NCBI RefSeq assembly: GCF_029223545.1
Contig: NZ_CP097870.1
Span: 1,984,001-2,048,000 of the forward strand
Direction: 5' to 3'
Length of the DNA: 64,000 nt
Source: Thauera sp. GDN1
GTDB lineage: Bacteria; Pseudomonadota; Gammaproteobacteria; Burkholderiales; Rhodocyclaceae
Under the pieces are notes generated by a model. It did no database searches. It worked only from the letters and a program-made list of their open reading frames with translations, and was not told the origin of the DNA. Of the stretch, positions 13,373 to 25,798 are shown piece after piece. Position 1 is the first letter of the stretch. Each line of letters opens with the position of its first letter. A program made the position numbers and the translations under genes.

Positions 13373-15112
13373 TCAATCGGTCCGGTCGAAGGCGTCGACC
13401 AGGATCGGCGTCAGCGCATGGGTCGGCCCGAGCGGGGTGGCCGGCGGCTGCAGTCCGGCGACGAATCCGGCGGCTTCTAAGCGTTCGAGCAGCGCGGGGT
13501 TGTCGGCGATGACGTGCACCGGCACGTCCCAGGGCTGGTCGGGGCCGCTCACCGTGCCGATCGGCTGGTGGTCGCCGATCACGATCGTCACCAGGTTTGC
13601 GGGCGCGTGGCGGGCGAGATAGTCCCCAAGCCAGTCGAACTGGTAGCGCATCGAGTCGATGTAGGCGGGCAGCGGGTTCGACCAGCTCGTCGGCTCCGCT
13701 TCGGCCGCCTCCACCTCCTCGGCGCTGAAGGCCTCGGGGCCGAGCAGGCTCGTCCAGTCGGCGCGGAAAGGCGGCAGCGCGCGAAAAGGCGCGTGCGTGG
13801 TGACGGTCGGAAACACGATCAGCCGCGGCGGACGTGTGGGGCCGCCAGCGATCGCAGTCCGCCGGCCGGATGCGGCCAACTCGTCGGCCTTGTCCGCGTC
13901 GGCTGTCTTGCCCGCAGCCGCACCAGTACCAGACTCGGAGTTCGCGTCGTACGTGGTCTGGAAGTCCCCGCCGAATTCCTGCGCATGGATCAGCGCCATC
14001 GAGGCCTGGTCCGGGATGCGCCAGAAGCCGAAGGGCCGACCGCGGTAGCCGATGCGTTCGGCGTCGGCGTAGCGCTCGAAGCCGTAGAAGACGCCCTCCG
14101 GCCAGGCTAGCTGGATCCCCGGCAACCAGCCGACGGTGCGATAGCCGTTGGCCGCGAAGTGGCGTACCAGGGTGGGGCGGTCGGTGGTGAGCAGCAGCTG
14201 GTAATCGCCCGGGTCGCGCATGTCGAGGCCGGAGAGCAGGCTGGCATGGGCGAGCCAGGAGGCGCCGCCGAAGGTGGGCGACACCAGCCGTGCGGAGACC
14301 ACCTGGCGGCCGCTGGCGGTGATCGCAGCGGCGAGCCGCGCGCGGTGGCCGCCCAGTTCGCGGGCGATCTCGGGGCGGTCGAGGGTCACCGCACCGTAGG
14401 CTTCGGCGAACACGATCAGCACGTCCGCGCCGCGCAGCCCGGCGAGCGTGCCGGCGAAATTCGGACCGGGGCCGAGACGCGCGGCGCCGGCGGTGCGCGA
14501 AAGGGCTGTCGACAGCAGCCGGTGCTGTTCGAGCACCATGGCGGTGACGGGCGCTGCGAAGAGCTGCGTCTGCGGTCGGCCGCTGACGGCCTGCGCCAGC
14601 CACAACACCAGGGTGACGCCCGCGAAGGCCAGCATCAGCCAGCGCCCGGGTCGCCCTTCCGCGCCGCGGGCGAGGAGGGCGACGCAGCGGCGCACGATCA
14701 GGTACAGGGCGGCGAGCACCAGGACGGCGCCGGCCAGCGCCAGGAGCACCTGGACCGTCGCGCCGGCGCTGCCGCTCATGTTGAGGACCGCGCCCAGGTG
14801 GGGTGCATCCCAGTAGAGATTGATGCGGCGCCCGAGCACGGCGGGCACGGTAACGTCGAGGTAGTGCAGCACCACCCACAGCGTGCCGATGACCGCGAGC
14901 AAGGTCTCCAGCCGGCGCGGCACCCGCGTTCGCACCACGGCCCAGGCGGCGATCAGCGCCACCGCGGGCGCGAGCTCGAGCGCGAGCCGCCATTCCAGCG
15001 CAGGCCACAGCGTCGGCCAGGCGTTGCCGTGGGCCAGCAGGAGGTTCAGCACGCCCAACGCGAGCGCGACGCCGGCCAGCGGACCGAGGCGCGAGCGCGG
15101 CGCGGGGTTCAT
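13373..15112 (-). CDS. Membrane alkaline-phosphatase-superfamily (sulfatase-like) protein
   Basis: 579 residues. The N-terminal 190 or so contain about five membrane helices. The rest is a periplasmic catalytic domain of the alkaline-phosphatase/sulfatase fold: a metal-binding VLIVFAEAYGAVTLD, a SPTFGGASWLAHASLLSG segment where the nucleophile should lie, THAPF, and the closing metal site VIGDHQP. The sulfatase C-x-P-x-R signature is absent, so Ser or Thr is the likely nucleophile, as in phosphoethanolamine, phosphoglycerol and lipoteichoic-acid transferases. Substrate unknown. The ATG at 15112 puts the first helix right at the start; it is divergent from the creatininase gene 71 bases away. 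Confidence 0.8.
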   Translation of the reverse strand: MNPAPRSRLGPLAGVALALGVLNLLLAHGNAWPTLWPALEWRLALELAPAVALIAAWAVVRTRVPRRLETLLAVIGTLWVVLHYLDVTVPAVLGRRINLYWDAPHLGAVLNMSGSAGATVQVLLALAGAVLVLAALYLIVRRCVALLARGAEGRPGRWLMLAFAGVTLVLWLAQAVSGRPQTQLFAAPVTAMVLEQHRLLSTALSRTAGAARLGPGPNFAGTLAGLRGADVLIVFAEAYGAVTLDRPEIARELGGHRARLAAAITASGRQVVSARLVSPTFGGASWLAHASLLSGLDMRDPGDYQLLLTTDRPTLVRHFAANGYRTVGWLPGIQLAWPEGVFYGFERYADAERIGYRGRPFGFWRIPDQASMALIHAQEFGGDFQTTYDANSESGTGAAAGKTADADKADELAASGRRTAIAGGPTRPPRLIVFPTVTTHAPFRALPPFRADWTSLLGPEAFSAEEVEAAEAEPTSWSNPLPAYIDSMRYQFDWLGDYLARHAPANLVTIVIGDHQPIGTVSGPDQPWDVPVHVIADNPALLERLEAAGFVAGLQPPATPLGPTHALTPILVDAFDRTD

Positions 15113-15183: not shown

Positions 15184-16029
15184 ATGGAAACCGCAAGCAT
15201 GATTGCCGAAACTGCTCTGCCCTGGTGGCAGGACCTCACGCCGCGCCAGATCGCCAGGATTGCCGATGCGGACGGTGTCGCGATCCTGCCGCTGGCGGCC
15301 ATCGAACAGCACGGCGAACATCTGCCGCTGTCCACCGACCTCGACATCGCGCTCGGCCTGCTCGAGGCCGCCCTGCCCAAGCTCCGCCCGGGGCTGCCGC
15401 TGTGCGTGCTGCCGCCGCTCGCAGTGGGGCTGAGCCTCGAGCACTGTGCCTTCGCGGGAACGCTGAGCCTGAGCCCAGAGACCGCGCTCGCGAGCCTGGT
15501 GGAACTGGGCGACAGCGTGGCGCGCGCGGGTTTCCGGCGCCTGGTGCTGTTCAACAGCCATGGCGGCAACAAGGCCGTCGTCGACCTCGCCGCCCTGAAG
15601 CTGCGCGTGGCGCACCGGATACTGGTGGTGCGCGCGAACTATTTCCGCTTCGCGCCCCCGCCCGACGCGCTGCCCGCGGCCGAACTGCGCCACGGCCTGC
15701 ATGGCGGCGCGCTGGAGACGGCGATGATGCTGCACCTCGCGCCGCACAAGGTGCGCACCGAGGCGATCGCCGACTTCGCGTCGATCGGCCGCGACATGGC
15801 CGCGCAGGCGGGCGTGCTCGGGCCGGAGGGCGAGGCCGGTTTCGGCTGGATGGCGCAGGACCTGAACGCGGGCGGCGCGACCGGCGACGCCCGCCTCGGC
15901 GATGCCGTCCTCGGCGCGCGTCTGGTCGATCACTTTGCGGGCACCCTCGCGCGCGTCATCGAGGATGCGCGCGATTTCGAGCTTGCAAGCCTGGTCGCGG
16001 CCGCGGGGCGTGCAGCGCCGGGAGGCTGA
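15184..16029 (+). CDS. Creatininase family amidohydrolase
   Basis: 281-residue metal-dependent hydrolase of the creatininase fold. Metal ligands are visible at Glu41, His43 and Asp52 (IEQHGEHLPLSTD), His126 (NSHGGN) and Glu178 (HGGALETAM). The family includes creatininase, mycofactocin MftE and the archaeal formamide hydrolase ArfB, which acts on a GTP-cyclohydrolase product. Its position next to ribA and a RibD-type reductase makes an ArfB-like deformylase role worth testing (inference). The ATG at 15184 is used; 15199 is an alternative start. A TATGAT -10-like hexamer lies at 15157-15162. Confidence 0.85.
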   Translation: METASMIAETALPWWQDLTPRQIARIADADGVAILPLAAIEQHGEHLPLSTDLDIALGLLEAALPKLRPGLPLCVLPPLAVGLSLEHCAFAGTLSLSPETALASLVELGDSVARAGFRRLVLFNSHGGNKAVVDLAALKLRVAHRILVVRANYFRFAPPPDALPAAELRHGLHGGALETAMMLHLAPHKVRTEAIADFASIGRDMAAQAGVLGPEGEAGFGWMAQDLNAGGATGDARLGDAVLGARLVDHFAGTLARVIEDARDFELASLVAAAGRAAPGG

Positions 16030-16105
16030 CGCGGCAGTGCGGCGGGCTCCGCTGCCTGCTTCGCCGGGCTCCCGCATCACCATGGTCGCCGCCGGATCGG
16101 CACGC

Positions 16106-17263
16106 TCAGAGGTGGCTGGCGGCGCCCGGCGCTGGCAGGCGCTCGGGTTCGGCCGAGGCCGGCTCGTCCTGCTCCGAGAGCAGCTCGTGCAGCCAGTGGC
16201 CATGGCGATTGGCCTTGGTGCGCAGGTAGCGCTGATTCTGGGTCGTGACCTCGCCGTAGATCGCCTGGCGGGCGACGACGTTGATGCCCGCGTGCTGCAG
16301 GGCCTCGACCTTGCTCGGGTTGTTGGTCAGCAGCAGAACCTTCTGCACGCCGAGCTGGTCGAGCATCTCGTGGGCGACGCGGAAGTCGCGTTCGTCCTTG
16401 GAAAAGCCGATCACCTGGTCGGCGTCGATGGTGTCCAGGCCCTCGTCCTGCAGCCCGTAGGCGCGCAGCTTGTTGGCCAGTCCGATGCCGCGGCCCTCCT
16501 GCGACAGGTAGAGCAGGATGCCGCCGCCCTGGGCGTCGATCGCGGCCACACCGCGGCGCAGCTGCTCGCCGCAATCGCAGCGCAGGCTGCCGAAGAGGTC
16601 GCCGGTGAGGCAGGACGAGTGCAGGCGCACCGGCACCGCCTCGGGCCAGCGGGTGGCGTCGCCGATGACGATCGCCACGTGTTCGTGCACGCCGTCGGCC
16701 TCGCGGAAGAGCACGAAGCGGCTGTTCTCGGCTTCGGCGAGCGGGACGCGGGCTTCGCTGATGCGGGTGAGGGCGCCCGGACCGGTCTCGCACAAGCGCA
16801 GCGCCTCGGCGGCGCCGACGGCGAGCAGGTTGCCGCTGGCCACCTCGGCGGCCACGACCTCGGCTTGCGCGGGGGCCACGGTGCAGGCGAGTGCGGCGGG
16901 GACGAGCTGGGCGCGGCCGAGCAGGCGCAGGGCGGTGCGTTCGGCCGCGGTGGCCGGGGTTTCGGTGCTGCCGGCGGGCAGGGTGGCACCGCGCATCCAC
17001 GCGAGATCGCGCAGGGTTTGGGCCGAGGGCAGCGGCGACAGGGTGAGCGCGCGCGCCTCGGGGGCGCCGCGGTGGCCGAGGGCGGCCATGCGATGCTGGC
17101 TGAGCACCAGCCGCGCGGGCGAGCCGCTCAGGGATTGGAGCGCGGCGAGCGCGTCGTCATCGAGGCCCTCGACCGCCTGGATCACGATGTCGCCGGCGGG
17201 TTGGCGAAGCAGGACCGGAAGTCCGCGTCGCAGGTCGAAGAGGGCACGCTCGGCTTGGCGCAT
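16106..17263 (-). CDS. ribA: GTP cyclohydrolase II with long N-terminal extension
   Basis: 385 residues, about 190 longer than a plain RibA. The C-terminal GTP cyclohydrolase II domain (from about 165) is complete: zinc ligands Cys218, Cys229 and Cys231 in HSSCLTGDLFGSLRCDCG, the catalytic segment YLSQEGRGIGLANKLRAYGLQ, and LLTNNPSKVEAL. It converts GTP to 2,5-diamino-6-ribosylamino-pyrimidinone phosphate, formate and pyrophosphate. The first 165 residues lack the acidic DHBP-synthase (RibB) signature, so this is not a working RibBA. GGAG sits 8 bases before the ATG. Divergent from the RibD-type reductase gene, which suggests a dedicated role rather than ordinary riboflavin synthesis. Confidence 0.88.
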   Translation of the reverse strand: MRQAERALFDLRRGLPVLLRQPAGDIVIQAVEGLDDDALAALQSLSGSPARLVLSQHRMAALGHRGAPEARALTLSPLPSAQTLRDLAWMRGATLPAGSTETPATAAERTALRLLGRAQLVPAALACTVAPAQAEVVAAEVASGNLLAVGAAEALRLCETGPGALTRISEARVPLAEAENSRFVLFREADGVHEHVAIVIGDATRWPEAVPVRLHSSCLTGDLFGSLRCDCGEQLRRGVAAIDAQGGGILLYLSQEGRGIGLANKLRAYGLQDEGLDTIDADQVIGFSKDERDFRVAHEMLDQLGVQKVLLLTNNPSKVEALQHAGINVVARQAIYGEVTTQNQRYLRTKANRHGHWLHELLSEQDEPASAEPERLPAPGAASHL

Positions 17264-17358
17264 TTGTTTTTCTCCGTCGGGATGAGTACGGTCGCCCGCG
17301 CGCGATGTGCATTCGGTGCGAGCTGCGCGGGTGCAGACCGTATTTTAAGGAATGATGA

Positions 17359-18339
17359 ATGTCGGGAAGACTTCTACCAGATTGGGGCTGGGCCTGCATC
17401 CTGCAAGCGCATGGGAGTGATTGGGCCGCGCGGCGCGCGACAAGTTTCATCGTCGACGGCGTCGAGATCGAAATTCAGGCCGGCGGCGCCTGGCGCTGCG
17501 CCGCGGGGGTGGCCGCGGACACGGCCGCGCTGCTCGACCTCTTCCTGCCGCTGGTGGCGCAGGCGGGCCCGCTGGTGATCGCCCAGCTCGGGCAGAGCCT
17601 TGACGGGCGCATCGCCACCGAGAGCGGCGCGTCGCACTACATCAACGACGTCGAGGCGCGCACGCACCTGCATCGCCTGCGCGCGCTGGTCGATGCGGTG
17701 GTGGTGGGCGTGGGCACGGTGAATGCGGACGACCCGCAGCTGACCGTGCGCCATGTGCCCGGCGCCAATCCGCTGCGCGTGGTGCTCGATCCACGGCGGC
17801 GGGCGATGGCGCGGGCGCGCGTCTTTTGCGACGGCGCCGCGCCCACGCTGCATCTGGTCGCGGACGATGGGGACGCACCGGCCGCGACGGGCGCTGCGAT
17901 GCCTTCGTCCGGCGCCGCTTGGGCGCGCCGGCATGACTTGCCGGTGCCCGCGTGCCCGGCGCCTGCCGTGGTCCGTCCCGCGCCGTTGTCTCCCGAGGAA
18001 GTCCGGCATTGCGTCCTGCCCTGCGCAGACGGGGGCTTCGAACCTGCGGCGGTGCTGCGCTGGCTGCATGCGGCCGGATACCGGCGGGTGCTGGTGGAAG
18101 GCGGCGGCGTGACCGTGTCGCGTTTCCTGCAGGCGGGTGTGCTCGACCGTCTGCATGTGATGGTGGCGCCGCTGCTGTTCGGTTCGGGTCGGCCCGGCCT
18201 GGTATTGCCGCCGATCGATACGCTGGGCGAGGCGATCCGTCCGGCCGCGCGGACTTTTGCCTGTGGCGGGGACATGCTGTTCGATCTCGACCTGCGCCGA
18301 AGCGCCGGGCAGGGCGCGGACGGCACGGGCGCGCACTAG
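17359..18339 (+). CDS. RibD C-terminal (reductase) family protein without deaminase domain
   Basis: 326 residues. From about residue 72 it is a RibD-C / dihydrofolate-reductase-like fold: VIAQLGQSLDGRIATESGASHYI, VVVGVGTVNADDPQLTVR, and RRVLVEGGGVTVSRFLQAG near the C-terminus. The zinc deaminase domain of bifunctional RibD is missing, and a Pro/Ala-rich loop (about 170-215) interrupts the fold. Such enzymes reduce the ribose of ribosylamino-pyrimidines or related carbonyls with NADPH. AAGGA precedes the ATG. Divergent from ribA by 95 bases. Its TAG stop overlaps, on the opposite strand, the stop of the flippase-like gene. Confidence 0.85.
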   Translation: MSGRLLPDWGWACILQAHGSDWAARRATSFIVDGVEIEIQAGGAWRCAAGVAADTAALLDLFLPLVAQAGPLVIAQLGQSLDGRIATESGASHYINDVEARTHLHRLRALVDAVVVGVGTVNADDPQLTVRHVPGANPLRVVLDPRRRAMARARVFCDGAAPTLHLVADDGDAPAATGAAMPSSGAAWARRHDLPVPACPAPAVVRPAPLSPEEVRHCVLPCADGGFEPAAVLRWLHAAGYRRVLVEGGGVTVSRFLQAGVLDRLHVMVAPLLFGSGRPGLVLPPIDTLGEAIRPAARTFACGGDMLFDLDLRRSAGQGADGTGAH

Positions 18340-19421
18340 GGCCGCGGCGCGGCGCGTTCAGTGGGTGGGGCGCGCCGGACCGGGTGGCGGAGCAGCAGCG
18401 CGCCCGGCAGGCTCGACAGCAGCACGACCACGCCGTAGGCGATGGAGATCGCCACGCCCTGCGCGGGGTCGAGGCCGGCGGCCGTCCACACCAGGGCGGC
18501 TGCGCCCTCGCGGATGCCCCAGCCCGCCACCGACAGCGGGATCGCCATCGCCAGCAGCACCCAGGGCACCAGCGGCGCCGCGGTCGCCGCCGGGGTGTCG
18601 ATGCCGATCATGCGCATGCAGCACAGATAGACGCCGACATAGCTGGCCACGATCAGCAAGGAGGCGAGCAGCTGGCGCAGGAGCACCTCGCGCGCGAGCA
18701 AGGCCTGGTGAACCGCCTGTCCCAGACGGACGAGCTGGCGCCGGCCCCGCCACAGCGCCACGCCGACGAGCACGGGCAGCAGCGCAAGCGCGAGCGGCAA
18801 GGACGAGCCCGATCCGCCGGCGGACGAGGCGAACAGCCTTGCGCCCGCCGCCTGCAGTGCGGGCGCAAAGGGCAGCGTCGCCAGCACCACGGCCAGCAAG
18901 GCCAGCTGACCCGAGGCGCGCTCGATAATGACCGCATGCCAGGCCGCGATCCCGACCGGTGTCCCGCCTTCCGCCTCGGTCCGGGGGCGACGGGCGTGGC
19001 GCCAGGCGCGCGCGGCGTCGCCCATGACGCCGCCGGGCAGGATCTGGTTGAGGAAGGTGGCGACGTAGTATTCGCGCAGCGCCTCGCCGAAGGGGAGCGG
19101 CGACCCGAGGCGCGCGGCTGTGAGCCGCCATCGCCAGGCGGACAGGGCGAGCTGGGGAAAGCTCAGGGCCAGCGCCGCCGCCAGCCATGCTGGCTCCGGC
19201 GCGGAGAAGGCCGCAGCGAGCGTTCGCGGCTCGAGCCAGAGCAGTATCGCGGCCAGCAGGCCCAGGCTCGCGGCCGGACGCAAGGCCCGCTTCAGTCGGC
19301 GCGCGGCCATGGGCGGATGGGTGCCGGTGCGCGGGGCGGCAGCGGGCGAACGCGACGAAGGCTGCGCAGGCGTGGGCAAAGAGGTGGGCAACGTGGTGGG
19401 TGAGGGGGTGGGCGAAGACAT
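18336..19421 (-). CDS. Lysylphosphatidylglycerol synthase-type transmembrane (UPF0104) protein
   Basis: 361-residue polytopic membrane protein with about eight helices, matching the flippase-like half of MprF without its aminoacyltransferase domain. Landmarks are WRWRLTAARLG near 110, EYYVATFLNQILPGGVMGDAAR and SVAGWGIREGAAA. Relatives are often found with glycosyltransferases and are thought to move or anchor lipid-linked products. The N-terminus from 19421 holds a P-T-x-x tetrapeptide repeat from a 12-bp DNA repeat; an in-frame ATG at 19310 (MAARRLKRAL) would omit it and could be the true start. Last gene of the minus-strand run that begins with the MDR dehydrogenase. Confidence 0.82.
   Translation of the reverse strand: MSSPTPSPTTLPTSLPTPAQPSSRSPAAAPRTGTHPPMAARRLKRALRPAASLGLLAAILLWLEPRTLAAAFSAPEPAWLAAALALSFPQLALSAWRWRLTAARLGSPLPFGEALREYYVATFLNQILPGGVMGDAARAWRHARRPRTEAEGGTPVGIAAWHAVIIERASGQLALLAVVLATLPFAPALQAAGARLFASSAGGSGSSLPLALALLPVLVGVALWRGRRQLVRLGQAVHQALLAREVLLRQLLASLLIVASYVGVYLCCMRMIGIDTPAATAAPLVPWVLLAMAIPLSVAGWGIREGAAALVWTAAGLDPAQGVAISIAYGVVVLLSSLPGALLLRHPVRRAPPTERAAPRP
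19370..19417. repeat. Four copies of a 12-bp tandem repeat
   Basis: Four imperfect units, each keeping GTGGG at the same phase: GCGTGGGCAAAG, AGGTGGGCAACG, TGGTGGGTGAGG and GGGTGGGCGAAG. In the minus-strand frame of the flippase-like gene they encode SPTP, SPTT, LPTS and LPTP. Since 12 is a multiple of three, copy-number change would not break the frame. Confidence 0.75.
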
Positions 19422-19441
19422 CCGAGCTTGTGCGCGCCGGT

Positions 19442-20389
19442 TCAGCGCGCGGGGTGGGGCGGGGTGGCGAACAGGTCGATGTGGCCGACCTCGAGCGTGC
19501 TGCCGCCGGCTCCGCCATGAGGACCGCCGCCGGCCTCGCAGTCCGCAATGCGCCGGGCGTGCCACGCCGTGATGCGCGCACGCGCGTCCGGGCGCTGGGC
19601 ACAGGCGGCGTCGCGCCAGCCGTCGATCAGCGCGCGGGCGAGTGCGGCATGTGCGGGTTCGGCCAGACGAAGCCGCCACGGACTCGCCGCGAGCCGGACC
19701 TCGAAGCCGCGCCGCTCCAGGCATGCGGCGAGCGCGGGCGCGGCGTCCGGGCCGAGCGCGGCGCCCAGGCCCTTGTCGCGGCGCTGGTGGGCGTTGAAGG
19801 TCGAGCGCACGAAGTCGTCGTCGGCATTGACGAGCGAGGCCTCTGCGGCGCTCGTCGCGGTGCCGGACAGGAAGCGCCAGGTCCCGTCCACGCTCAAGGT
19901 CACCAGCACCGCGCTGCCGGTCTCGGCGCAGGCGGCGGCGAGACGCTCGAGCCAGGCGGCCTCCACCAGGTCGAGCAGGGCCGACGCACAGACGAGGTCC
20001 GCGCCGGCCAGCGTCGGTGCATCGAGCCGGGCAAGATCCTGGTGGCGCGTCATCACATCGACCGCTGTGCCATCGGCAGCGCGCAACACGGCGCACCCGG
20101 CGCGCGCCCGGGCGAGGAGGCCGGCATCGTGATCGATCAGGGTCCAGGCCTGGGGGCCGGGCAGGCGCGGGGCTAGGTGGCAGGGGTTGGCGCCGGCGCC
20201 GCTACCCAGGTCGATGAGGCGGAGCGCCTGGCCCGCGGGCGCGGCCGCCAGGCGCTGGCACAGCCAGTCGGCGGCGCGCGCCTCCAGTTCCTGCGCGCGC
20301 GCAGCACTGTCCGCCGCCTTGCGCAGGGCGAGCCAGCTCGCGTCGAAGCAGGCATCGGAGTGAGGCTGGGCGTGATCGTTGAGGCTCAT
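19442..20389 (-). CDS. Class I SAM-dependent methyltransferase
   Basis: 315-residue protein with a Rossmann methyltransferase core. The SAM-binding loop LIDLGSGAGANPCHLAPRL lies at about 59-77, the acidic second-strand end is LIDHDAGLL, and a motif-IV-like stretch is ADLVCASALLDLV. Target unknown. It lies 20 bases upstream of the flippase-like gene and 29 bases downstream of the glycosyltransferase gene, so belongs to the same minus-strand operon. In this context it most likely methylates a small glycosylated product or its precursor, rather than RNA or protein (inference). Confidence 0.85.
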   Translation of the reverse strand: MSLNDHAQPHSDACFDASWLALRKAADSAARAQELEARAADWLCQRLAAAPAGQALRLIDLGSGAGANPCHLAPRLPGPQAWTLIDHDAGLLARARAGCAVLRAADGTAVDVMTRHQDLARLDAPTLAGADLVCASALLDLVEAAWLERLAAACAETGSAVLVTLSVDGTWRFLSGTATSAAEASLVNADDDFVRSTFNAHQRRDKGLGAALGPDAAPALAACLERRGFEVRLAASPWRLRLAEPAHAALARALIDGWRDAACAQRPDARARITAWHARRIADCEAGGGPHGGAGGSTLEVGHIDLFATPPHPAR

Positions 20390-20418
20390 CGGATGACTCG
20401 TGCGGGCTTGCGGGGCGT

Positions 20419-21495
20419 TCAGGGCCGGCTCGGGGTGGAGCACGGCGAGCGCTCCAGCGCGGTCAGCACGGCGGCGAACTCGGCGCCGGCGCGCGGCCAG
20501 TCGCGCAGCGCCGCGCGTGCCCTGCGGGCGCCGTCGCGCAGGGCGTGGCGGCGCCCGCGGTCCCTGATCAGGGCGGCCAGCGCGTCGGCGAGCGCATCGA
20601 CGTCGCCGGGCGGGACGGCGAGCCCGGCGCCCGTGGGCAGGGTCTCGGCCAGGGCGCCGCCGGTGGTGGTGAGGACCGGCAGCCCGGCCGAGATCGCCTC
20701 GGTCACCACCATGCCGTAGCCCTCGTAGTGCGAGGGCAGCACGAACAGATCGGCGCCGGTGTAGGCCGCCCGCAGGCGCGCGTCGTCGCATTCGCCGTGG
20801 AGCCGGATGCGTTCGTCGAGACCGGTTTCGGTGACGAGCGCCGCGAGCGCACGGGCAAAATCCGGATCACGCGTGCGGCTGCCGATGATGTCGCACTGCC
20901 AGGACAGCCCGCACACGCGGTGCAAGGCGCGCACCAGCAGGTCCTGGCCCTTGCGCGGGCTGAGGGTGCCGATGCACAGCAGCCGGGGCGGCTCGCCCTC
21001 GGCCATGGCCAGCGGCAGCGGCGTCACCCCGGGTTCGACCGTGCGCACACGGGCGGGCTGGAGGCCGAAGTCGGCGATCCGTCGTGCGGTGAAGCGGCTG
21101 GTGGTGATCACCTGGCGGACGGCCGCAAGCGCGGCGCGCTCGCTGGCGAGCAGGCAGTGGCGGCGCGCCACGCTCAGCCCGCGTTCGTCGCCGAGCGGGT
21201 GGTGCACCAGGGCGACGAGCGCGAGACGGTGGCCGTGGCGGATCGCGACCTCGGGGAGGCCGCCGAGGGCCAGCCCATCGACGATCACCTGGCGTCCGTC
21301 GGGCAGTGCGGCGAGGGTGCGCTCGAGGGCGGCGCGCGCGCCCGCATCGTCCTCGGGAAAGCGTCCGGGGAGGCCATGCACATCGACCGTCCACCCCAGC
21401 CGGCGCAGCTCGGCGACGATGTGGGCGTCGTACAGATAGCCGCCGGTGCGCTGGCCGGGGTCGCCCGGCACGATGAAGTCGAGGCGCGGCGTCAT
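20419..21495 (-). CDS. Glycosyltransferase family 4 protein
   Basis: 358-residue GT-B-fold retaining glycosyltransferase. The N-terminal acceptor domain starts LDFIVPGDPGQRTGGYLYD. The nucleotide-sugar domain has LLCIGTLSPRKGQDLLVRAL, ADLFVLPSHYEGYGMVVTEAISAG (containing the E-x7-E motif of GT4 enzymes) and GLAVPPGDVDALADAL. No signal peptide or helix is visible, so it is cytoplasmic or peripheral at the membrane. The 112-base gap to the PTPS-like gene upstream is very GC-rich and I saw no gene in it. Within this cluster it would add a sugar to the pterin/pyrimidine product or to a lipid carrier (inference). Confidence 0.9.
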   Translation of the reverse strand: MTPRLDFIVPGDPGQRTGGYLYDAHIVAELRRLGWTVDVHGLPGRFPEDDAGARAALERTLAALPDGRQVIVDGLALGGLPEVAIRHGHRLALVALVHHPLGDERGLSVARRHCLLASERAALAAVRQVITTSRFTARRIADFGLQPARVRTVEPGVTPLPLAMAEGEPPRLLCIGTLSPRKGQDLLVRALHRVCGLSWQCDIIGSRTRDPDFARALAALVTETGLDERIRLHGECDDARLRAAYTGADLFVLPSHYEGYGMVVTEAISAGLPVLTTTGGALAETLPTGAGLAVPPGDVDALADALAALIRDRGRRHALRDGARRARAALRDWPRAGAEFAAVLTALERSPCSTPSRP

Positions 21496-21607
21496 GCGCT
21501 CGACGCCGCTGGGCTTGCGAAGGCGCCGCCCGCGCGACGGGCGGTGTCCTCCCCGGCGGCCCGGGCCGCTGCGCGCAGCGCGTGGTCCGGGGCTGCCGTC
21601 GCCTGCA

Positions 21608-22006
21608 TCACAGCGCGCCCTCGTAGCTCGCCCAGGCGATGTGCGATTCGTGCAGGGTGACCTTCAGGCGCTCCAGGCCCTGTGCGCCGCCGCCCAGCCG
21701 GCCGTCGCGGATCGCCGCCGCCAGGCGCTCGAAGATTTCCCGCGCCATGAACTCGGTGGTCGTGTTGCGGCCGCGGAAGGCCGGCTCTTCATCGAGGTTG
21801 CGGAAGTTGAGTCCGGCGAGCACCGCCTCGAGGGTGTCGCCGGCGAGGCCGATGTCGACCACCAGGCCGTCGGCGTCGAGCTCGCCGCGCTGGAAGCAGG
21901 CGTCGACGATGTAGGTGGCGCCGTGCACGCGTTGCGCGGGGCCGAAGATGGCGCCCTGGAAACTGTGGGCGATCATGATGTGGTCGCGGACGGTCAGGCT
22001 GTACAT
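21608..22006 (-). CDS. Divergent 6-pyruvoyl-tetrahydropterin synthase / QueD-like protein
   Basis: 132-residue member of the PTPS/QueD superfamily by length and layout: IAHSF (His14), RVHGATYIV (His28), [23 protein letters not shown] and [13 protein letters not shown] (Glu120). Several family-defining residues are changed. The zinc motif H-G-H is H-G-A (Ala30). The catalytic Cys position, four before that motif, is Ala24. The Asp-His pair of the L-D-H-x-N-L-D segment is Asn67-Phe68. Glu120, which holds the pterin ring, is kept. It may bind a pterin-like ligand but should not do standard PTPS chemistry. The start overlaps the MDR gene's end by 13 bases. Confidence 0.87.
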
Positions 22007-23037
22007 GAATCGTCTCCGGAGTTCGTGGTGGGGTCGTCCCGGGTGCCGGCGTCCGGGTAGCGGATGCGTTCGCACAGTGCGCCCGCCGGCTCGAAGGCGA
22101 GGCGCTGCATCAGCGCCGGCAGGTCCTGGAAAGCGGTTTCGCCGCTGATCAGCGCATCGAGCCGGGGATCGACGAGCAGGGACAGCGCAAGTTCCATGCG
22201 TCGGCGATACGTCCACCGCGGGCTCTTCTGCGGCGGGACGTGACCGACCTGGCTCGACTTGATGCCGAGCCGGCGGGCGTGGAAGGCGCCGCCGAGCGGC
22301 ACGCTCACCGCCGTGCGCCCGTACCAGCTCATCTCGATGACGGTCGCCTCCTGTCCGGCGAGTTCGAGCGCAGTGGCCAACCCGGCCGGGTGGCCGCTGG
22401 CGTGGAAGACGAGATCGCATTCCGCGCCGGCGGCCGCGGGCAGGCGGAAGCCGAGGCCGAGGGCGTCGGCGAGCCGGGCGCGGCCGGGATCGATGTCGAT
22501 CAGCTCGACTTCGGCGCCGGGAATGCGCGCGCACAGCCACGCGACCAGGCTGCCCACCACGCCGGCGCCGACGACGGCGATGCGGTCGCCCATTCCCGGT
22601 GCACCGTCCCAGCACGCGTTGAGCGCGGTTTCCATGTTTGCGGCGAGCACCGCGCGCGCCGGCGGCAGTCCGGGCGGCAGCGGGATGACGGCGCGCGCGG
22701 GCACGACATAGCGCGTCTGGTGCGGGTGCAGGCAGAACACCACGCGGCCGCGCAGCGCGGCGGCTTGGGCCCCGGTGCCGTCCTCGACGACGCCAACGCT
22801 GATGTAGCCGTACTTCACCGGCCCGGGGAAATCGCCCTCCTGGAAGGGCGCACGCATGCGCTGGTACTCGCTCTCGGGCACCTCGCCGCGGAAGACCAGG
22901 CTCTCGGTGCCGCGGCTGACCGCGCCGTATAGACTGCGCACGAGGACTTCGCCCGCAGCGGGCGGGTGCAAGGTCGCGGGGCGCAGTTCGCCATGGCCGG
23001 GGCATACGGTCCAGAAGGCGAGATTGGTGTCGGCCAT
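21994..23037 (-). CDS. MDR-family (zinc-type alcohol dehydrogenase-like) oxidoreductase
   Basis: 347-residue medium-chain dehydrogenase/reductase with a GroES-like N-terminal domain ([18 protein letters not shown]) and a Rossmann domain whose NAD(P) loop is [16 protein letters not shown], ending in an Asp-rich [11 protein letters not shown]. The classical GHE zinc motif is replaced by KYGYISVG and no four-Cys structural zinc loop is seen, so it may be zinc-independent. The S-R-G-T-E motif is shared with BchC-like and sugar-modifying members. GAGGA lies before the ATG at 23037. First gene of the minus-strand operon; overlaps the PTPS-like gene, pointing to translational coupling and a shared substrate. 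Confidence 0.87.
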
Positions 23038-23230
23038 CCTGTGGTCCTCGGATCGAACCCGGCGCGTATGGGGTGCCCGCGCGCCCGGCGGAGTGTCGGC
23101 GCCGCCGCGTGGTGGATCGCGCAGCGCTTGTGCGAACCCTTTGCCGCGGCGGATGATCGAAGCGGACATGGTAGCAGGGGCCCGGGATCCGGGGCTGCGG
23201 ACCGGGCGGCAACGCGGCGAGGGCTGAGGA

Positions 23231-23983
23231 TTGATCGAGGAAGGCGGATTGGCTTCGGGGCGCAGGTCCTTGCCGGTCGCGGTGCTGGAGCTGCTGGCCG
23301 CACTCGGAATGCTGCTCGGCCTGTGTGCGCTCGGTGCGACGTTCGTCGCGCTGCCCGGCCGGGCAATGTGGGCGGCCGCTGGCGTGCTGGTGGCGGCGTG
23401 CGCGCTGGTGCTGAGCCGATGGCCCGATCCGCGTACCACGCTGGGACCGGCGAACCGGGTCACGCTGGGGCGGGCGGTGCTGGTGGCGCTGGTGGCCGGA
23501 ACGCTCGCGGCACCGGTGTGGGCGCAGCACCATGCGGCCTGGGTCGCAGTGGTGGCGGGTATCGCGCTCGCCCTCGATGGTGTGGACGGTTGGGTGGCGC
23601 GCCGCTGGCGCTGTGCCAGTGCCTTCGGTGCGCGCTTCGACATGGAGCTCGACGCCTTCCTGATCCTGGTGCTGTGCGCGCATCTGCTGTTGATGGGCAA
23701 GGCGGGGAGCTGGGTGCTGGTGATCGGGGCGATGCGTTATGGATTCGTCGCCGCGATGCGGGTGTGGCCCTGGCTCGATGGTCCGCTGCCCGAAAGCGGC
23801 CGGCGCAAGCTGGTGTGCGTTTGGCAGGTCGCCAGCCTGCTGCTGTGCCTGTTGCCGGTCGTCGATGCGACGTCGGCGGCGGTGCTGCTGGCGGCCGCAC
23901 TCGGCCTGCTGGCGTGGTCGTTCGCAGTCGATGTGCGCTGGCGCTACGTGAACGGCCGCCCCGAGGGAAAGCGCGGCGGATGA
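23231..23983 (+). CDS. CDP-alcohol phosphatidyltransferase family protein
   Basis: 250-residue integral membrane enzyme with about six helices and the full CDP-alcohol phosphotransferase motif D-x2-D-G-x2-A-R-x8-G-x3-D-x3-D at about 116-141 (Asp116, Asp119, Gly120, Ala123, Arg124, Gly133, Asp137, Asp141). It moves a phosphoryl-alcohol group from a CDP-linked donor to an alcohol, often making a phospholipid; donor and acceptor are unknown. The start is TTG at 23231, or perhaps TTG at 23249, which has a better GAGGAAGG site. Divergent from the MDR gene by 193 bases and followed closely by the YceI gene. Confidence 0.87.
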
Positions 23984-24039
23984 GGTGGTGCGGTGAGTCA
24001 CGCCCGACCAATCGACGAAGTGCCAAGGAGGAGGACACG

Positions 24040-24666
24040 ATGAACACAAGAACCACCGCTTTTCCCGCCCTGCGCCGGCTGCTGGCCGCGGGTCTGGCCC
24101 TGGCCGCGGTCGGTGCGGGCCCGGCCTGGGCCGAGCCACGCACCTACACGATCGATCCGGATCATTTCTCGATCGGTTTCCAGGTCGAGCACCTGGGCTA
24201 TGCGGACGTGATCGGCATGTTCCTGAAGGGCAGCGGCAGCTTCGTCTATGACGAGGCGACACGCACGCTGTCATCCGGGCGCGTGGTGGTGGCCGCGGAC
24301 AGCGTGTTCAGCAACCACAAGGCGCGCGACCGGCACGTGCGGGACAGCGATTTCCTCGATGCCGACCGTCATCCCGAGATCGTGTTCGAGGCCACCGCCT
24401 TCGAGCTGCTGATGGAGAACGATGGGCGGCTGGACGGACGCCTGAGCGGCAAGCTCACACTGCTCGGCCAGACTCATCCGGTGACGCTGGAGGTGTCGCT
24501 GAACAAGGCGGCGACCTACCCATTCGGCCATCGCAAGCACACGCTGGGGGTCTCGGCTCGCACCAGCCTGCTGCGCAGCCAGTGGGGCATGAGCTACGGG
24601 GTCGACCGCGGCATGGTCGGCGACGAGGTGCTGCTCAGCTTCGAACTCGAGGCGATGCGCGACTGA
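24040..24666 (+). CDS. YceI family periplasmic protein
   Basis: 208 residues. The signal peptide (basic [13 protein letters not shown], hydrophobic core, AWA cut near residue 31) is followed by a YceI domain: [51 protein letters not shown] and [14 protein letters not shown]. YceI proteins are lipocalin-like barrels that bind isoprenoid or other long-chain amphiphiles in the periplasm. AAGGAGGAGG precedes the ATG. It lies 56 bases after the CDP-alcohol phosphotransferase gene on the same strand, which fits a lipid-related role. Confidence 0.92.
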
Positions 24667-24718: not shown

Positions 24719-25798
24719 TCAGCCGCCGATGTAGGACATCTCGATCTTGCGCAGCGCGGCGGTGTCGGCGGTGCGGATCTCGGAGTAGCGGTCCTCGCGC
24801 GCCTGCCAGACCTGGGCGATGGCCGCGTCGAGGGCCTCGTCCTCGGCACCGGTGCGCAGCAGGCTGCGCAGGTCGTGACCGTGCTGGGCGAACAGGCAGG
24901 TGTAGATCTGGCCTTCGGTGGACAGGCGGATGCGGGTGCAGGTGGAGCAGAAGGCCTGGGTGACCGAGGAGATCACGCCGATCTCGCCGGCGCCGTCCTT
25001 GTAGCGCCAGCGCTCGGCGACCTCGCCCTCGTAGTTGGGATCGATGGGTTCGAGCGGGAACAGGCGGTCGATACGGGCGATGACCTCGCGCGAGGGCAGC
25101 ACCTCGTCCATCTTCCAGCCGTTGGAAGCGCCGACGTCCATGAATTCGATGAAGCGCAGGATGTGGCCGCTGTGGCGGAAGTGCCCGGCCATGGCCTCGA
25201 TGTCGGAATCGTTGGTGCCGCGCTTGACCACCATGTTGACCTTGATCGGACCCAGGCCCACCGCCCGGGCCGCCTCGATGCCTTCCAGCACGCGGGCGAC
25301 CGGGTAGTCGGCGTCGTTCATGCGCCGGAACAGGGTGTCGTCGAGCGCGTCCAGACTGACGGTGACGCGGTGCAGCCCGGCGTCCTTGAGCCGGCGCGCC
25401 AGCTTGGGCAGCAGCACGCCGTTGGTGGTGAGCGTGATCTCGACGCCGTCGAGCGCGGCCAGCATGCCGATCAGGCGATCGACATCCTTGCGCAGCAGCG
25501 GCTCGCCGCCGGTGATGCGGATCTTGCGCACGCCGCGGGCGACGAACAGGCGGGCCACGCGCACGATCTCCTCGAAGCTGAGCAGTTCGCGCCGGGGCAG
25601 GAAGGCGTAGTCGTCGCCGAAGACCTCGCGCGGCATGCAATACACGCAGCGGAAGTTGCAGCGGTCGGTGACCGAGATGCGCAGATCGCGCACGCTGCGG
25701 CCGCGGCGATCGAACAGCAGTTCGCCGGCGGGCGGGCGCAGCGTCATGTCGGGCGTGGCGATGGCGGACGCAGCCTGCTGGATCGGGATGACTTTCAT
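24719..25798 (-). CDS. moaA: GTP 3',8-cyclase MoaA
   Basis: 359-residue radical SAM enzyme for the first step of molybdenum cofactor synthesis, turning GTP into 3',8-cyclo-GTP. The N-terminal 4Fe-4S cluster ligands are Cys47, Cys51 and Cys54 (CNFRCVYC). The second cluster is bound by CSTC and a downstream Cys (QIYTC) near 280-300. The C-terminus is the required Gly-Gly (YIGG). Full length. Convergent with yceI and divergent from the Lon-like gene. No clear molybdenum cofactor riboswitch was recognised in the 151-base upstream region. Confidence 0.96.

Follow-up and report, generated by a model that had tools for sequence, protein, structure and literature searches.

Gene content of the locus

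The window analysed here, a stretch of 64,000 nucleotides from Thauera sp. GDN1 (contig NZ_CP097870.1, positions 1,984,001 to 2,048,000), is part of a 3.87-Mb single-contig genome. It harbors a gene cluster around a divergent member of the 6-pyruvoyl-tetrahydropterin synthase (PTPS) family, assigned below to the subfamily PTPS-IV. A preliminary description of the window had listed ten genes between positions 15184 and 24666 and had read them as a possible new biosynthetic pathway; profile scans of the window frames returned the families and strands of all ten as claimed. The genes of the locus are the following:

13373..15112, minus strand: membrane-anchored protein, denoted SULF, with a predicted alkaline-phosphatase-superfamily (LtaS/GacH-like) fold; start placed at a conserved Met
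15184..16029, plus strand: creatininase-family amidohydrolase (PF02633, 205 bits), candidate FAPy-nucleotide formamidase (BrbF-like role)
16106..17263, minus strand: GTP cyclohydrolase II RibA, PRK08815-like, with an extra N-terminal domain (PF00925, 188 bits; NF006456, 331 bits, below the cut-off of 464)
17359..18339, plus strand: stand-alone RibD C-terminal-type reductase, RibD-C (PF01872, 129 bits)
18336..19421, minus strand: flippase-like LPG_synthase_TM (UPF0104) membrane protein (PF03706, 135 bits; TIGR00374, slightly above cut-off)
19442..20389, minus strand: class I S-adenosylmethionine-dependent methyltransferase, MT (PF13649, 23 bits, below the cut-off of 27)
20419..21495, minus strand: GT4 glycosyltransferase (PF00534, 111 bits)
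21608..22006, minus strand: PTPS-IV protein with FGPAQ signature, relative of SCO6650 (PDB 3d7j; PF01242, 79 bits; 3d7j_A, 184 bits)
21994..23037, minus strand: MDR-family dehydrogenase with SxGTE motif, BchC-like (TIGR01202 bchC, 44 bits, far under cut-off)
23231..23983, plus strand: CDP-alcohol phosphotransferase, CDP-AP, with the full DG..AR..G...D...D motif (PF01066, 60 bits)
24040..24666, plus strand: YceI-family protein, peripheral member (PF04264, 133 bits)
24719..25798, minus strand: MoaA-like flanking gene, outside the cluster (named from its reading frame)

The MDR and PTPS-IV genes overlap by 13 bases, as described before, given a PTPS-IV start at the Met conserved among its relatives. 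The stand-alone nature of RibD-C was likewise borne out: PF01872 is the only domain found, and the N-terminal deaminase domain of bifunctional RibD is absent.

Conservation of the gene set and its spread

The PTPS-IV protein was searched in 61 near genomes and in 398 genomes of the phylum. It was matched in 17 of the former, including 15 of the 29 genomes of the own genus, and its closest relatives among the matches listed are from Thauera. In the phylum set, 27 matches (own genome included) reached at least 129 bits, while the next ones stayed below 47 bits; this gap marks PTPS-IV as a subfamily with a sharp boundary. Eighty loci, the best 80 of 579 confirmed relatives, came from a pattern scan of the genome collection, and 36 further loci were added. 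Removal of 21 loci with short flanks from these 116 left 95 with more than 6.5 kb on either side of the PTPS-IV gene. A gene was scored as present when the window protein gave a tblastn match (E 1e-5) anywhere within the locus; the SULF query began 28 residues upstream of the adopted start. Many of the 116 loci are related and, judged by place or gene order, some regions were fetched twice (L080/L087, L050/L090, L051/L098, L055/L100), so that the counts do not represent independent events.

The MDR dehydrogenase and GT4 are matched in all 95 long-flank loci, MT in 93, and RibD-C in 80, followed by CDP-AP (74), the flippase-like protein (65), RibA (55), and the creatininase-family protein (52). 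SULF (34), YceI (29), and MoaA (9) form the outer part. The best 80 of the 579 yield 80 matches each for MDR and GT4, 77 for MT, 68 for CDP-AP, 61 for RibD-C, 54 for the flippase-like protein, 45 for the creatininase, 41 for RibA, 25 for SULF, 21 for YceI, and 2 for MoaA. Across all 116 loci, the GT4 match is absent from one (L071) and the MT match from five. Wherever matched, MDR (116/116), GT4 (115/115), MT (111/111), and the flippase-like gene (74/74) lie on the PTPS strand, and the one-strand arrangement noticed in the window thus holds throughout the PTPS-IV loci. RibD-C and CDP-AP usually occupy the opposite strand (84 of 92 and 88 of 89 loci with a match). In the 115 loci where it was measured, the distance from the MDR stop to the PTPS start mostly stays below 50 bases, and some of the gene pairs overlap.

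For comparison, ordinary PTPS genes were scored at 16 control loci, four of them second copies from PTPS-IV genomes. None of the 16 showed a match to MDR, MT, RibD-C, CDP-AP, the flippase-like protein, RibA, or the creatininase, and a remote GT4 match occurred in two; in L219, L221, and L228 the PTPS itself fell below the tblastn limit. The 95-locus counts, the constant strands, and the controls provide the strong co-occurrence that the preliminary description had proposed to look for across genomes. The gene grouping exceeds chance. Its core consists of MDR, PTPS-IV, GT4, and MT on one strand, usually together with RibD-C, CDP-AP, and the flippase-like gene, and GTP cyclohydrolase II and the creatininase-family hydrolase are often its companions. 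The genes very probably form one functional unit. Of the ten genes first described, a conserved multi-gene unit stands, with YceI at its periphery and a ribA that is housekeeping-like in Thauera (see below); SULF, just left of the interval first described, has to be added to the conserved neighborhood on the basis of its 34 loci.

The titles of the best 80 of the 579 loci point to Pseudomonadota, Actinomycetota, Acidobacteriota, and Gemmatimonadota, with many metagenome bins among them. The PTPS tree contains six phylum changes against a minimum of three, which hints at horizontal transfer. A PTPS relative is also present in 24 plasmid records, four of which belong to Haloarcula (32-36% identity). 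The core order MDR-PTPS-GT4-MT is found in annotated neighborhoods of Streptomyces, Agrobacterium, Methylosinus, and Microbacterium, with varying outer genes. One Haloarcula plasmid carries a divergent set composed of creatininase, CDP-AP, MDR, PTPS-like protein, and GT4; at the MT position lies an annotated hypothetical protein that gives no tblastn match and was read as methyltransferase-like. The order of the genes is unchanged there, and the set is maybe an older form of the pathway. An aldo/keto reductase is annotated near the PTPS gene of the Haloarcula plasmid (L213), and a ‘cytochrome b’ beside the Agrobacterium plasmid copy.

Features of the encoded proteins

The FGPAQ motif was described in 2017 as the signature of PTPS-IV, along with genes of PF00925 and PF01872 that neighbor a 561-member sequence cluster (PMC5445326, accessible part). 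The motif is invariant in all 27 rows of the PTPS-IV alignment and, in a set of 95 relatives and the window protein, conserved in 95% or more. Both neighbor families also lie next to the window gene, as expected from a member of PTPS-IV, and recur in the long-flank loci at the RibA and RibD-C frequencies given above. Ordinary PTPS rows of the alignment show a catalytic Cys, an Asp-His pair, and both His of HxH; PTPS-IV has lost the Cys, the pair, and the second of the two His, and keeps the Glu and Thr/Glu positions read as the pterin anchor; we take these residues, and the three zinc-binding His, to have the roles implied by these names. The earlier label of a degenerate PTPS-like protein was thus apt, as catalytic residues and one zinc ligand are lost. 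This pattern agrees with the structure of SCO6650, which reportedly lacks zinc and the catalytic triad and has a pterin-like pocket. A canonical (biopterin) PTPS was rejected as a candidate, since Cys, Asp-His, and the second His of HxH are replaced. The Haloarcula protein (L213:8001-8378) shows both His of HxH intact, no FGPAQ, and no Cys.

The window RibA shows the zinc motif CLTGD..RCDC and RAY with the catalytic Tyr, as is characteristic of a GTP cyclohydrolase II; the Cys triad presumably binds zinc and the Tyr is presumably catalytic. The genome encodes two PF00925 genes, and only window ribA keeps the zinc motif. The other belongs to a ribE-ribB-ribH-nusB group:

G000:C1:3757746-3758879 (L166:7747-8880): RibB fusion of PRK14019 type, whose second, GTP cyclohydrolase II-like domain lacks the zinc cysteines

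A second RibD_C gene lies elsewhere in the genome, in a frame read by eye as bifunctional RibD. Thus, the separate riboflavin genes expected earlier do exist (ribE, the ribB fusion, ribH, and a second RibD), with the reservation that the zinc motif is confined to window ribA. Several genomes of the family (e.g. G029, G035, G036) have a single PF00925 match with a low score similar to that of the RibB fusion. Thirty cluster genomes contain two to four PF00925 matches each. When positions were compared with the cluster loci, the cluster RibA proved to be an extra copy in 18 of them (7 Halomonadaceae, 4 Streptomyces, 4 Micromonospora, and 3 other Actinomycetota), the other copy reaching at least 218 bits. 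Of the remaining 12, 11 show no PF00925 gene within the cluster locus as fetched, and that of G478 is found 1.7 kb beyond the locus end.

The catalytic Tyr of the cluster RibA is replaced by Met, His, or Ile in 10 of 58 RibA rows. In Streptomyces loci the substitute is Met, in agreement with SCO6655, a GTP cyclohydrolase II that reportedly carries Met in place of the catalytic Tyr and releases a formylated product. A creatininase gene accompanies all 10 loci with a non-Tyr RibA and 37 of 48 with Tyr, a difference that is not significant (p 0.18) and is based on related and partly duplicated rows; the pairing of a Tyr-less RibA with a creatininase deformylase points in the right direction and is suggestive only. 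SCO6655 is listed as GTP cyclohydrolase II (PMC2853524, accessible part). BrbF (Sinorhizobium SMc02977), annotated as a creatininase, is described in the accessible text of PMC9478397 to take formate off a GTP-derived FAPy nucleotide. The cluster protein, whose motifs EQHG, TD, HGG, and ET are conserved over 55 relatives, is likened to BrbF by shared family annotation, not by sequence comparison. A BrbF-like role would suit GTP cyclohydrolase II variants whose product retains the formyl group, as is reported for SCO6655.

Among the remaining proteins, RibD-C scores 133 bits with the NCBIfam model ribD_Cterm and 96 bits with that of the archaeal reductase, both under cut-off, and its best PDB match, 6p8c, is a 2,5-diamino-6-ribosylamino-4(3H)-pyrimidinone 5'-phosphate reductase. 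The MDR protein has the SxGTE motif and, by reading, no usual catalytic zinc ligands; its model (pLDDT 93, a per-residue confidence score) resembles alcohol and polyol dehydrogenases. PDB matches of GT4 comprise Tll1590 (the best), D-inositol-3-phosphate glycosyltransferase, and phosphatidylinositol-mannoside mannosyltransferase. Conserved motifs are D.G.G.G in MT (66 relatives) and DG..AR..G...D...D in CDP-AP (62 relatives); the latter has no PDB relative at E 0.01. SULF gave no sequence match in Pfam, NCBIfam, or PDB. The best PDB matches of its AlphaFold model (pLDDT 86) are LtaP/LtaS, an alkaline-phosphatase-superfamily protein, and GacH, with E-values of 1.7e-6 to 1e-3 but template modelling (TM) scores of only about 0.42-0.47 by target and a root-mean-square deviation of at least 6.6. 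Its residues G513-D514-H515 (GDH) are invariant in 21 rows.

A candidate pathway and competing explanations

The explanation considered best, with a probability of roughly one half, is that the cluster is a horizontally mobile unit that converts GTP into a glycosylated and methylated pterin or diaminopyrimidine, which is probably attached to the membrane or exported. The chances that the product is at least a GTP-derived glycoside are evenly balanced. The chemical steps that we infer from the protein families would be as follows. GTP cyclohydrolase II would open GTP, and the creatininase-family protein would remove the formyl group where a cyclohydrolase variant retains it. The stand-alone RibD-C would reduce the ribosyl to a ribityl side chain, no deamination taking place. 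MDR may then oxidise a side-chain hydroxyl, and PTPS-IV may bind a pterin-like intermediate and help in ring closure or rearrangement. GT4 would add a sugar and MT a methyl group, and CDP-AP, the flippase-like protein, and the LtaS-like protein would attach, move, or modify the product at the membrane. By chemical deduction, oxidation at C2' by MDR and condensation with the 5-amino group could form a 7,8-dihydroneopterin-type ring with no need for GTP cyclohydrolase I. That MDR and PTPS-IV indeed make a dihydropterin ring is a tentative idea. Equally speculative is the full scheme, in which GTP cyclohydrolase II, RibD-C (acting at C1'), MDR (C2'), and closure by PTPS-IV, followed by the addition of sugar and methyl, would produce glycosylated pterins of a new class, membrane-bound or exported, without GTP cyclohydrolase I. 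If true, this would be a second way to a neopterin-type ring, spread by plasmids among bacteria and haloarchaea.

Several points weigh against the proposed GTP-derived glycosylated product. In Thauera, ribA has the appearance of a housekeeping gene, shared with the cluster at most. It is retained, with scores of 183-194 bits like those of window ribA, in 12 of the 14 own-genus genomes lacking PTPS-IV, directly adjoins moaA with no cluster gene in between in five of them (G011, G014, G018, G022, G025), and in the genome analysed here is the sole PF00925 gene with the zinc motif. Of the others, G001, G007, and G013 have only ribA and creatininase, G003 and G028 have ribA alone, G021 has it on a 4-kb contig, and G016 (L208 2723-6396) shows a cluster remnant in which creatininase, ribA, GT4, and part of RibD-C are left; the two genomes without ribA (G024, G026) contain only the weaker, fusion-type PF00925. 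The cluster thus looks as if it sits around a housekeeping ribA in Thauera, for which gain and loss of the cluster are alike possible. No RibA match is present in the fetched flanks of 40 of the 95 loci, and creatininase occurs without RibA in 9 of the 95 (in L141, a PF00925 gene lies 1.7 kb beyond the locus end). RibD-C is not nearby in 7 of the 10 loci with a non-Tyr RibA. By sequence, RibD-C appears nearer to the bacterial RibD domain than to the archaeal reductase, all scores lying below cut-off, and the best NCBIfam model of the creatininase is MftE at 105 of 172 bits, also below cut-off. MDR seems to lack zinc ligands, which makes the direction of its reaction unsure, and MT has no informative relative of known function. 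The chemistry of PTPS may also differ between lineages, as the Haloarcula protein keeps HxH and lacks FGPAQ. Of the biosynthetic reading first proposed, a likely GTP or pyrimidine input and glycosyl-, methyl-, and membrane-linked tailoring are supported by the conserved loci, with ribA of Thauera standing apart as housekeeping-like.

It is rather unlikely that two adjacent units are present instead, i.e. a riboflavin-supply module (RibA, creatininase-type formamidase, and RibD-C) beside a glycan or lipid operon of unrelated function (GT4, MT, flippase, CDP-AP, and SULF), the latter served by PTPS-IV and MDR through another substrate. The housekeeping-like ribA of Thauera, the three genomes with ribA and creatininase but not the rest (G001, G007, G013), the loci devoid of a RibA match, and the action of BrbF in riboflavin synthesis (PMC9478397, accessible part) would fit such a division. 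It is opposed by the ribE, ribB fusion, ribH, and second RibD genes elsewhere in the genome, by RibD-C accompanying the PTPS core in 80 of the 95 loci from four phyla, and by the cluster RibA being an extra copy in 18 of 30 cluster genomes. Another proposal, which is improbable, is that the cluster makes a group attached to a glycan of the periplasm or membrane, in some lineages an osmoregulated periplasmic glucan: a GTP-derived group would be glycosylated and then transferred by the LtaS-like protein. Here, open frames of the 116 loci were clustered, and the recurrent families given here were each named from one representative by family scans and BLAST. An FkbM methyltransferase recurs in 36 loci, SULF in 35, an MdoH-like glucosyltransferase (GT2) in 26, and MdoG in 23. 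The MdoH-like and MdoG genes occur in Halomonadaceae, a Defluviicoccus, other non-gamma Pseudomonadota, and Gemmatimonadota, and mdoH is annotated beside the plasmid copy of Methylosinus (L214:5079-6881), divergent from the cluster MDR gene. Together with FkbM and the predicted LtaS/GacH-like fold of SULF, these neighbors speak for a glucan. Opposed to this, MdoG was found in none of the 29 own-genus genomes, own included (MdoH was not searched for there), and 15 Actinomycetota loci, like most loci overall, contain neither MdoH-like protein nor MdoG in the fetched flanks. A general link to periplasmic glucans was consequently dropped with the absence of MdoG from the own genus, and the glucan genes are kept as accessory or as a rival only. 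The MdoH-like proteins share 31-85% identity with a single Halomonas member, and their positions differ between lineages.

Two assignments in circulation were also weighed, and both are very unlikely to be correct. Many records name the PTPS-like gene a 6-carboxy- or 6-pyruvoyl-tetrahydropterin synthase, i.e. QueD of queuosine/preQ0 synthesis or an ordinary folate/biopterin gene. The window protein scores 34 bits with the QueD model TIGR03367 (cut-off 89) and lacks the QueD/PTPS-I motif CxxxHGH, showing HGAT in place of HGH, no Cys, and the loss of catalytic residues described above; on motif and score, a QueD role was rejected. QueC, QueE, and QueF models were not found among the recurrent neighbor families with an annotated representative, some families having been left unannotated. 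With at least 579 relatives known, this suggests that hundreds of genes called 6-carboxytetrahydropterin synthase are misnamed. The other places PTPS-IV in the synthesis of the deazaflavin F420, which has a ribityl-pyrimidine precursor in common with riboflavin. Near one plasmid copy in Streptomyces, the annotation shows a PPOX-class F420-dependent oxidoreductase, and the own genome harbors an F420 gene:

G000:C1:2563533-2564429: cofD, 291 bits, above the curated cut-off

Yet within the 398-genome set, cofD exceeds the cut-off in 2 of 27 genomes with PTPS-IV and in 3 of 371 without it, i.e. it is rare in both groups and somewhat commoner with PTPS-IV. In the own genus it occurs in 9 of 29 genomes, 5 of 15 with and 4 of 14 without PTPS-IV, so that no association exists. 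These counts cover the 398-genome phylum set and the own genus, with Actinomycetota and archaea outside, and they disfavor an F420 role, as 25 of the 27 PTPS-IV genomes do without cofD. The accessible text of the review PMC5041015 assigns PTPS-IV to F420 from unpublished work; the counts suggest that this printed assignment should be dropped.

Known systems resemble the proposed route to a GTP-derived glycosylated product in parts. The archaeal ArfA/ArfB/ArfC start of riboflavin and F420 synthesis shares ring opening, deformylation, and reduction before any deamination (in part PMC9478397). Unlike this route, the cluster has a GTP cyclohydrolase II-type enzyme, and PTPS, MDR, GT4, and MT replace lumazine or Fo synthesis. 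The 8-azaguanine (ptn) cluster also leads to a specialised product from ring-opened GTP, but uses a putative GTP cyclohydrolase I gene and nitric oxide synthase, with no PTPS, GT4, or MDR named in the accessible text (PMC7109123). The PTPS-IV subfamily of COG0720, including SCO6650, shares FGPAQ and the PF00925 and PF01872 neighbors; its description, in the part available, names neither a product nor MDR, GT4, MT, flippase, or CDP-AP (PMC5445326). The earlier statement that no product had been described agrees with the titles and abstracts listed in searches of the open-access literature, none of which describes a cluster product (subscription papers lie largely outside), and has to be qualified in that the link of PTPS-IV to PF00925 and PF01872 was printed before. 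The cluster provides a testable partner set for an orphan family with a crystal structure and no demonstrated function, and a gene set co-inherited in several phyla and on plasmids offers a direct entry to an uncharted class of GTP-derived small molecules. The cluster product may have a redox role, given a cytochrome b561-type protein, its family named from one representative, that is encoded in nine loci (L064, L065, L066, L069, L074, L075, L076, L089, and L116).

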